A stretch of 46,884 nucleotides of DNA from Bacillota bacterium (GTDB lineage Bacteria > Bacillota > Desulfotomaculia > Desulfotomaculales > Desulforudaceae). The number at the start of each line of letters is the position of its first letter. The stretch's first letter is position 1. The notes below the pieces were generated by a model, which saw nothing but the letters and a program-made list of their open reading frames with translations, did not search any database and had not been told where the DNA came from. The stretch spans positions 1 to 46,884 of the forward strand of contig JBFLXL010000012.1 in assembly GCA_040757205.1 (NCBI GenBank), written 5' to 3'. Made by a program: the position numbers and the translations under genes. Below are positions 4,897 through 43,542 of this stretch, piece by piece.

Positions 4897-4962
4897 AGGG
4901 GGACAGTCCCTTTGGGGAGAGAGGGACTGTCCCCTTGGGGAGAGGGGGACTGCCCCCTTCGT
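4897..4962. repeat. Palindromic repeats with GGGGACWGTCCCC core
   Basis: Three consecutive variants (GGGGGACAGTCCC, GGGACTGTCCCC, GGGGGACTGCCCCC) separated by TTTGGGGAGAGA-type spacers follow the degV stop codon. The same family recurs at 7258-7395 and 40139-40260. The array lies between two convergent genes, where its hairpins could also end transcription from both sides. Confidence 0.85.
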
Positions 4963-7235: not shown

Positions 7236-7526
7236 GGGAGGGATGTCCTCCTTGGCTCCCAGGGGAACAGTCCCCTTACGGTTGTAGGGGGACTGTCCCC
7301 TTGGCCCCGAGGGGGACTGTCCCCTTCCGGTTGGCTCCTTGGCCCCTAGGGGGACAGTCCCCTTGGGTCCGAGGGGGACTGTCCCCTTAACAGTCCCCTT
7401 TGCCTTATGGTCTTTCCGGTCTTTGCCGCCGCCCGCGGCTTCCCCCGCGCCGCCTCCGCGGCCGGGGCCGGCGGCTCTGCCGCTCCTCTTTTTGCGGGCT
7501 CCCCTCGCGGCCATCCTTTTCCCCCT
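7236..7526. repeat. Spacer with five or more GGGGACAGTCCCC palindromes
   Basis: Between 7258 and 7395 the palindrome GGGGACWGTCCCC occurs repeatedly in both orientations (for example GGGGGACTGTCCCCTT, and AGGGGGACAGTCCCCTT), with spacers such as GGGCCCGAG, GGCTCCTTGG and CCTAGG. The rest (about 7396-7526) is GC-rich and low in complexity with no supported gene. The motif also appears at 4897-4962 and 40139-40260, always between genes. Confidence 0.85.
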
Positions 7527-40126: not shown

Positions 40127-40510
40127 AAAAAGGGGAAAAGGGGGGCAGTCCCCTATCCCCCCCCTATTTCCGTATCCAAAGAGGGACGTGCCCTTTTCCG
40201 TAACACCAAAGGGGGACAGTCCCCTTGGGGAGAGGGGAACTGTCCCCGTTCCAGGGGACTGGCTCCTTTTCCCGCATGGAAACCTGACGATTACCAGTAC
40301 AAGTGACAAGTGGGAAAAGGTGCCTGTCCCCCTCGGTGACCCTGTTCCTTGGCAACCAGGATATCCACTCGTGACATCAGGAAAGGCAAAAGGGTCTGAC
40401 GCTTTTTCGAGGTGCGCAAAAGGTGTCTGACACTTTTTTCGCACTCGTGTTTAGTGAAAAAGGGTCGACACCTTTTTCGGTGCGTGGGCGCGCTCCCCTT
40501 TTGGCGCCCT
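40127..40510. repeat. Cluster of two palindrome families
   Basis: No gene. 40139-40260 holds GGGGACAGTCCCC-type palindromes (GGGGGCAGTCCCC, GGGGGACAGTCCCC, GGGGAACTGTCCCC). 40390-40480 holds three units of another family: AAAAGGGTCTGACGCTTTTT, AAAAGGTGTCTGACACTTTT and AAAAAGGGTCGACACCTTTT, each a palindrome around GTC(T)GAC. GGGCGC...GCGCCC near 40490-40510 may be the terminator of the minus-strand gene that follows. Confidence 0.85.
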
Positions 40511-41920
40511 TTAGGCATCACTGGGGCGGCGGGCAAGGATGGTGGAGATCCGTACGGCCAGCCGCACCAAGGGATGGTTTGCGGTCCTCTGCAGCCGCCG
40601 GAACTCCTCCCGCGTCCGCCCCACTTCCTCCTGCATGAAGCGGATTGAACGCTGCAGGTCCTCCCCAGCCTCCAGGGCATCGCGCAGATCGCGCTGCATC
40701 CGGTCGATCTCTTCGCGCAGGGTCTTCTCCTTGCGGGAGGCCGTGAATCGTTCCTTCTCGCCCCGGGCTTTCAGTTCGATTATTTCCCCTTGGAGTTCAG
40801 CCACGCGGGCACTCTGCTCCTCTTTCAGCTGGGCGAGTTCGCTCTTTTGTTCCCGGGCCCGCTCGCGGAACTGCTGGAGCTTGCTGAACATCCCCTCCAG
40901 GTTGTTCTGGGTCGCCTCCAGTGAATCCCGCAGCCGGCGGGTCTCATCCTGGGAGTCGCGGGCCCGCTGGACCCACAGGCGGCACTGGTGCAGGATGCTG
41001 TTCGCTTTCGACTCCAGTTTCCGCACCTGGTCCTGGTAGTAGAGAATCTCCTTCTTGCGCAGCGACAGGAGCAGGTCTTTCTCGGAAAGCAGGGTGGCCA
41101 GGTGGTCCCGCTGGTCCCGGACGATGACGTGCTGAGCGACGGCTGCGGCTGCCTCCCGCTGGGCGGAACCCAGTTCTTCGAGTTGGGCCTGCACCTGCTG
41201 GTACTTTCGGTACCACTGCTCGCGCTCCCACTGCCAGCGTTTCTTCTGATCGCGCAGGATGCCCAGGTACTTTTTCATGACCTCTTCGTAAACCCGGTGG
41301 GCGGACTGGTTGTAAGTCCAAACGCTCTCACTCTGGATTTCGAAGTACGGAAACTTGCGCACCTGGGCCTCCACCGAAGCCTCGGTGGCCAGGCGCCACT
41401 TGTTTACCACGGTTGCGATCTGGGGCAGGGACAGGCCCGCAGGATGCAGCCGGAGAGCCTTGATAATGAGATGATTCAAGGGATAGCCTTCGGTCTCGGT
41501 GTCCCATTCGGTCAGGCCCCACGTCCCGTTGGTCAACTGGACGAACCGCCCGTCCCGGATCAGGTTCGCCTCTTCCGCAATCAGGCGCCTTAGCTTCTTC
41601 TTCTTGTTTGGGCCAACGTTGACCGCATCCCAGAGGCTCAAGGCTTCACCCCGCTTGAGGAGCAGGTGGTAGAACTGGTCGTTTTCCCGGTTGCCCTCAA
41701 GGTTAAGCATCCACAGACGGTCCTCTCCCTGTTTGAAGCCAGCGTGCTGTTTCAGGCAGAGCAGCACCTTTTCCTCAATCTGGCTCAGGGAATAGTCCTG
41801 CAGCATTTTCCGCCGCACGTAAGGCGCCAGTTCCTTGGCGGACATAGCTTCAAAAAAGAACAGGGTCTTTTTCAGTACATCGGTCAACGAATGTAGGGTC
41901 CCGCTCACCGGTGCGCTCAC
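40511..41920 (-). CDS. HARE-HTH (RNA polymerase delta-like) domain protein with long coiled coil
   Basis: 469 residues. In the N-terminal part, IRDGRFVQLTNGTWGLTEW (about 121-139) closely matches the end of the HARE-HTH winged helix of Firmicutes RNA polymerase delta subunit. A similar unit seems to precede it (LAPYVRRKMLQDYSLSQIEEKV...LWML, 31-73) and another winged-helix-like unit follows (150-205, WTYN). Residues about 210-440 are a nearly continuous charged coiled coil; the C-terminus is basic (RLAVRISTILARRPSDA). No signal or membrane segment. The start GTG is uncertain. Function unknown; nucleic-acid binding plus oligomerisation is inferred. Confidence 0.72.
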   Translation of the reverse strand: MSAPVSGTLHSLTDVLKKTLFFFEAMSAKELAPYVRRKMLQDYSLSQIEEKVLLCLKQHAGFKQGEDRLWMLNLEGNRENDQFYHLLLKRGEALSLWDAVNVGPNKKKKLRRLIAEEANLIRDGRFVQLTNGTWGLTEWDTETEGYPLNHLIIKALRLHPAGLSLPQIATVVNKWRLATEASVEAQVRKFPYFEIQSESVWTYNQSAHRVYEEVMKKYLGILRDQKKRWQWEREQWYRKYQQVQAQLEELGSAQREAAAAVAQHVIVRDQRDHLATLLSEKDLLLSLRKKEILYYQDQVRKLESKANSILHQCRLWVQRARDSQDETRRLRDSLEATQNNLEGMFSKLQQFRERAREQKSELAQLKEEQSARVAELQGEIIELKARGEKERFTASRKEKTLREEIDRMQRDLRDALEAGEDLQRSIRFMQEEVGRTREEFRRLQRTANHPLVRLAVRISTILARRPSDA

Positions 41921-42019
41921 CTTCTCCCTTCATTTGCTAGTGATCCCAGGTCTTTACAGATAAATACCCCGTCGACCCGGTAAACCCTGCGGGAAAAGGC
42001 AAACTTTTTTTAGGAGTTT

Positions 42020-43542
<1,523 letters not shown>

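Follow-up and report, generated by a model that had tools for sequence, protein, structure and literature searches.

Gene and locus

The window analysed here is the whole 46,884-nucleotide stretch (positions 1 to 46,884 of contig JBFLXL010000012.1, assembly GCA_040757205.1) from a Bacillota bacterium of the order Desulfotomaculales. On its reverse strand, at 40511..41920, lies an open frame of 469 codons with a GTG start, encoding the 469-residue protein named in the original prediction, which we call Q. The alignment with most relatives begins only at codon 5, and the gene may therefore really start at the GTG at 41908, which would yield 465 residues. The gene is present in one copy in its own genome, and its nearest relatives in named records, 97% identical in UBA911 and 74% in Candidatus Desulfopertinax cowenii, make its bearer an anaerobic firmicute. 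Comparison with the orthologue at locus L005 gives a Ka of 0.049 and a Ks of 0.413 (Ka/Ks ∼0.12), low in both halves of the protein, and by this measure Q is under purifying selection.

Upstream of Q and on the same strand is a conserved neighbour, guaB (IMP dehydrogenase, 42020..43480). Within the order, guaB lies at most 1.6 kb upstream and on the same strand as Q in 38 of 41 loci (L002 and L062 being the same place); two of the exceptions (L053 and L057) start near a contig end, and the third (L050) shows no guaB. A divergent GNAT gene also lies upstream in 22 of the 41 loci. In other families the neighbours, as read from their sequences, include RluD, LspA, PgpA and a transporter, with no known sporulation genes among them. 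Assigning a pathway from the neighbours was rejected, guaB being constant but uninformative. In families f31 and f51 the Q relative has a DNA methylase gene a short way upstream (8 of 20 loci, L118–L125; e.g. L118:8916-9773), the L118 copy matching PF01555 with 84.5 bits.

The window also contains GGGGACWGTCCCC-type palindromes, with 24 matches (at most one mismatch, both strands counted) against 2.9 expected, clustered at 4899-4957, 7263-7386 and 40134-40479. The third cluster, downstream of Q, also carries AAAAGGGTCTGACGCTTTTT-type repeats, and the clusters look like REP-like elements.

Domain architecture of protein Q

Residues 78-139 (41504..41689, reverse strand) carry the signature of a delta-type HARE-HTH domain (DGRF...WGLTEW), DGRFVQLTNGTWGLTEW occupying residues 123-139. 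No named family in Pfam or NCBIfam matches the window protein above its curated cut-off, which agrees with the original suggestion of a factor not yet described. Taken alone, the protein scores 14.1 bits against PF05066 (cut-off 25.9) and 19.0 bits against TIGR04567 (cut-off 42, E 0.0012), both sub-threshold, and the 12 members of the order matched in the TIGR04567 search all fall below the cut-off; a relative from family f31 (L118) clears the PF05066 gathering cut-off of 25.9 with 30.3 bits. We then drew on a 59-row alignment of Q, which left out the window's own copy (L003), a broken copy (L059) and duplicates, and from which 44 rows were chosen for diversity (alignment A2). All 44 members matched TIGR04567 at E ≤ 0.01, and the six top matches of the A2 profile in the PDB were RNA polymerase delta chains (E 4.4e-5 to 0.0048), with the best stretch at residues 77-136. 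An hhalign comparison of residues 78-139 with 20 deltas reached 98.7%, but since those deltas had been chosen with the A2 profile itself, the PDB matches are the cleaner evidence. Judged by profile homology, the kinship of residues 78-139 with the N-terminal (HARE-HTH) domain of delta is real, and the claim that such a domain sits in a long coiled-coil protein is borne out by the PDB and TIGR04567 matches.

The original prediction had also proposed extra winged-helix units, and had staked itself on a winged-helix fold in the first 210 residues. Such a fold is indicated by homology for residues 78-139 and by prediction for residues 146-206 (41303..41485, reverse strand), while an earlier unit at residues 9-75 is as yet unproven. 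Residues 146-206 are modelled by AlphaFold2 as helix-helix-helix-strand-strand with block pLDDT values of 72-86 over residues 151-210, and VIA-align superposes them on FoxP2 (Z 9.3, rmsd 2.4, 71 aligned). Their structural matches include TtgV, Fox, linker-histone and other DNA-binding winged helices; the top Z was 9.6, but with an rmsd of 6.1, and VIA-align often gives a best Z of 7 to 8 even where there is no clear match. Residues 9-75 (41696..41896, reverse strand) form three predicted helices with an F..W.L end at a pLDDT mostly below 50, and are possibly a third winged-helix unit, the first in order along the chain. The AlphaFold2 models were built from three aligned sequences and have mean pLDDT values of 52.7 and 41.1. 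Foldseek with the Q model returned nothing at E ≤ 0.001, and delta is absent among the best 50 structural matches listed (Foldseek; VIA-align), which mostly probe residues 141-222. Descent of the winged-helix units as an internal repeat is not claimed: hhalign between the N-terminal units, and of units 1 and 3 against delta, gave probabilities of 0.5 to 17%.

Residues 211-445 (40586..41290, reverse strand) are assigned to a coiled coil by their hydrophobic periodicity and SMC-type coiled-coil matches. The hydrophobic period is 3.5 residues, a peak that the piece 270-330 alone does not show, and the net charge is +6; because of this charge and this period, the region is no acidic tail. The original reading of about 230 residues of coiled coil in the place of delta's acidic tail thus holds, at ∼235 residues. 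The best-conserved stretch within it, residues 280-317 (40970..41083, reverse strand; EKDLLLSLRKKE ... KANSIL.QCRLWV), has 16 invariant positions in alignment A1, and over the 59 rows the mean share of the majority residue is 0.81 for block 276-300 and 0.78 for block 301-325, among the best conserved of the protein. A nucleoid SMC was rejected, as the coiled coil alone matches. Q resembles SMC/Rad50 in low-level coiled-coil similarity (TIGR02168, 20.1 bits) but lies far below the cut-off of that model (567), and there is no ATPase domain among its matches.

The C-terminal tail, residues 449-466 (40523..40576, reverse strand; HPLVRLAVRISTILARRP), is basic and hydrophobic. Its pattern consists of a Pro or Trp-Pro and, after it, a stretch that is both basic and hydrophobic (window: HPLVRLAVRISTIL; distant relatives: WPVRLALRL). 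This pattern recurs in 67 of 79 rows, among them distant relatives, and most of the other 12 end alike by eye. A membrane or partner anchor is possible; the tail of the window protein has a hydrophobic moment of 0.37, which is not high for Q (maximum 0.64) and counts against such an anchor.

Distribution of Q

How widely such proteins occur was a question raised by the original prediction. Within the order, 104 of 113 genomes have a Q match, the window's own genome and one broken copy (G041) included, as do 78 of the 80 well-assembled genomes. Full-length matches are 43-97% identical, with two divergent ones at 40-41%, and the gene is near-core in its order. Most genomes contribute one row, and extra rows are coiled-coil matches, a split gene (G041) or a second piece (G079); G090 has two full copies.

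Across the phylum sample, 47 of 398 genomes encode a protein whose match covers all or most of the first two units (rows read by eye, and counting G187, whose match runs from position 38 only). Nine relatives from five families (f51, f52, f60, f63 and f133) are 638-705 residues long, with ∼200 residues inserted before the last winged helix, and the third unit was undetected in six relatives examined from f31. One relative (L113, genome G159) is split into two frames of 311 and 157 residues, unlike L114, by a frameshift or a sequencing error. Three f69 genomes (G167, G205 and G339) hold other large frames of 603-618 residues whose delta-type match is sub-threshold; these may be one more fusion family.

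A defence or phage origin was considered and rejected. None of 73 candidate stretches from viral contigs was confirmed as a Q relative, PHROGs gave no match for the N-terminal part of the window protein and PADLOC matched in the coiled coil only; one weak PHROGs match (E 0.092) was obtained for a Q relative.

Upstream elements

The boxes reported for sigma-H are RNAGGAWWW and RNNGAATWW (PMC8510167), and we scored RNAGGAWWW-N11-13-RNNGAAT over 13 positions, counting a site at 12 or more of 13. For the 104 genomes with a match, 58 upstream regions were read, loci with fewer than 150 bases upstream being excluded, and 42 of the 58 orthologues have a sigma-H-type site. The same score was reached by 6.1% of first-order shuffles, by 1 of 58 reverse complements and upstream of 29 of 299 conserved neighbouring genes; among these neighbours, the MinC-looking cluster c22 has a site in 5 of 6 loci. 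As the positive control, spoIIAA, was recovered in only 10 of 30 upstream regions, the score is specific rather than sensitive and no sharp test of sigma-H. In 34 of the 42 cases, spread over 15 of 16 families, the site falls 60-95 bases ahead of the start. Family f1, to which the window belongs, reaches no score of 12 or better at the usual distance (0/7), only sites of 11, and the putative promoter of the window's Q gene (41962..41990, reverse strand) is a weak one, at 11/13 as scored at the same site in L001, with a degenerate −10 box read by eye beside the 97% identical L001. Transcription of Q in this organism may also come from read-through of guaB, ∼100 bases upstream. Distant relatives have a site of at least 12 in 9 of 20 cases, commonly of the form GCAGGAAAA-N12-GTCAAAT.

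The canonical 0A box, TGNCGAA, is found upstream of none of the 58 orthologues. Nineteen of the 58 regions, against 4.2% of shuffles, carry TGTWGAA, an element other than the 0A box; in 18 of them it stands at a fixed distance of 117-132 bases before the start, and in the nineteenth at −41.

Loss of Q together with sporulation genes

Each genome of the order was scored for three sporulation markers, namely Spo0A, SpoIIAB above cut-off and SpoIVA above cut-off, with the split, sub-threshold SpoIVA of G041 and G051 taken as missing. Ninety-four genomes are 85% complete or better. At least two of the markers are missing from four of these (G031, G040, G041 and G103), and Q is absent, a relic or broken in all four, against none of the other 90 (Fisher p 3.3e-7, uncorrected for kinship). 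The 85% threshold was picked after the data had been seen; at 90% or more the counts are 2/2 against 0/83, and over all 113 genomes 5/7 against 5/106. Two of the 90 (G011 and G081) have part of Q only, the match in G081 beginning at contig base 3.

What is left of Q differs among the four. G041 (L059) has Q in two frames with stops, with guaB and the GNAT gene kept; G040 (L201) has a relic, fragments of residues 232-293 at the right place beside the same two genes; in G103 (L202) Q was not found beside the retained pair; and in G031 it is absent, with weak guaB matches only. The first three, with SpoIVA split in G041 and Q at three stages of loss, may be lineages of recent non-sporulators. Assembly errors could also be the cause of the Q and SpoIVA splits in G041. 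The four genomes belong to three families and are all small (1.2-1.9 Mb) and fragmented, and for this reason general gene loss is a confounder of the association. None of the other genomes without Q (G004, G005, G009, G059, G108 and G110) is more than 84% complete; the guaB of G009 is cut off by the contig end, and the other five have weak guaB matches only. Two further genomes, G029 (84% complete) and G084 (64% complete), miss markers, yet have a Q match.

At the level of the phylum Spo0A is uninformative on a link between Q and sporulation: 45 of the 47 Q genomes have it, as do 345 of the full 398. Within the order, retention or loss of Q seems to go hand in hand with retention or loss of the ability to sporulate, the independent losses being few. 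The original prediction had spoken of a nucleoid, replication or transcription factor, and the co-loss and the sigma-H-type promoter point, within that range, to sporulation; Q is probably a new early sporulation factor.

Q compared with the delta subunit of RNA polymerase

Q shares with delta (RpoE; TIGR04567, PF05066) the signature DGRF...WGL..W in residues 78-139, for which delta chains are the best PDB matches. Unlike delta, it has at least one further winged helix, a long coiled coil, a C-terminal tail and often a basic run: at least three consecutive K/R occur in the loop region in 39 of 59 Q rows and in none of 20 canonical deltas. The W-x-P segment just after the domain, which in Bacillus subtilis delta cross-links to the beta' jaw (PMC7749165), follows the domain in 16 of the 20 deltas, against 0 of the 56 Q rows (of 59) with the WGLxxW pattern. 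Since it lacks an acidic tail, misses the curated cut-offs and has no W-x-P, we did not file Q as delta; its sequence features mark it as kin to the delta domain and not itself a delta subunit.

The two proteins also keep apart in distribution. Canonical delta above cut-off is encoded by 0 of 47 Q genomes against 105 of the 351 others in the 398-genome phylum sample (p 2.4e-7, kinship ignored), and by reading of the lists no family has both. This exclusion may be plain phylogeny. In the order itself, the PF05066 search matched 17 of 113 genomes, ten of these matches being Q itself, and four places outside Q were above cut-off.

Possible role of Q

The reading that we favour, to which we give a probability of about 0.4, is that Q is an early-sporulation, DNA-binding coiled-coil protein that tethers the chromosome in the way that RacA does. 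Q would be made before asymmetric division from its sigma-H-type promoter, a timing suggested by the sequence, and would dimerise through its coiled coil. Its winged helices, the delta-type HARE-HTH and at least one other, with folds assigned by homology and prediction, would bind DNA, and the conserved C-terminal tail would hold the protein at the membrane or at a polar partner. In this manner Q would gather or tether the chromosome for the spore as RacA does in Bacillus, with no kinship to RacA implied. The racA gene is under sigma-H control, and RacA, which is much smaller than Q, reaches the pole through DivIVA and binds ram sites. RacA has an N-terminal HTH followed by a C-terminal coiled coil and acts early in sporulation (PMC6593407); Q likewise has its coiled coil after N-terminal HTH domains, a resemblance in working only, but differs in its DNA-binding domains and its much greater size. 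None of the NCBIfam matches of Q is named for RacA, in a library that may hold no RacA model. A wider version of the favoured reading holds that Q and its distant relatives are a sporulation chromosome anchor of deep-branching anaerobic spore formers, a DNA-to-membrane tether that recruited a delta-type domain independently of Bacillus RacA and replaced free delta there; we consider it somewhat unlikely in this full form.

The main rival to a RacA-like protein is a polymerase-bound factor. Q would then be the delta equivalent of these lineages, its domain docking on the beta' jaw and shelf and its coiled coil, in place of an acidic tail, acting on the polymerase at the sporulation sigma switch. 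Delta being the nearest kin of residues 78-139 and the mutual exclusion of Q and canonical delta both speak for this, as does the report that B. subtilis delta favours the exchange of sigma-A for other sigma factors (PMC11156646). Yet the jaw-cross-linking W-x-P is absent, the basic run that Q often carries is one that the 20 deltas lack, there is no acidic tail, the exclusion may only reflect descent, and decay along with sporulation is not expected of a general polymerase subunit; we regard a delta equivalent as unlikely. We would also be surprised if Q were a site-specific transcription factor or nucleoid-associated protein of the sporulation phase that tethers nothing and uses its coiled coil for dimers or filaments only. 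A winged helix with DNA-binding structural matches, a coiled coil and the sporulation link speak for such a protein. A dimeriser, on the other hand, would need less than a coiled coil of ∼235 residues whose central motif is near-invariant, together with a conserved tail at the end of the protein.

Least probable, in our estimation, is a general cell-cycle or stationary-phase protein, whose losses would be genome reduction and whose sigma-H-type site would mean stationary-phase control only. The small size and fragmentation of the four genomes without a sound Q fit this explanation, and sigma-H serves non-sporulation genes too, the MinC-looking cluster being a possible case among the neighbours of Q. 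Against it, the guaB and GNAT genes that flank the site are retained in three of the four genomes, and another small genome (G043, 1.8 Mb), which has all three sporulation markers, retains Q.

HARE-HTH domains have been proposed as readers of modified DNA (PMC10853773, PMC11037411). Q shares the domain superfamily with the restriction/modification proteins that carry them, but no nuclease or methylase domain was found in it with Pfam, and its gene is conserved beside guaB, outside a defence island.

Implications

The HARE-HTH domain is already known; what appears new, among the literature matches listed, is the architecture of Q, its link to sporulation and the exclusion of delta, none of which occurs in the titles and abstract openings of those matches (HARE-HTH, sporulation, RacA, Desulfotomaculum). 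The survey of Aravind and Iyer from 2012, the main one for HARE-HTH, may mention such proteins. To our knowledge, how the chromosome is positioned and captured for the spore outside Bacillus is largely open, and Q offers a concrete candidate for chromosome capture: it is near-core, linked to sporulation, and combines domains of the DNA-binding type with a coiled coil and a conserved tail. If Q acts instead on RNA polymerase, it would be a developmental factor that has taken up a delta-type domain, in lineages where no free delta was detected.
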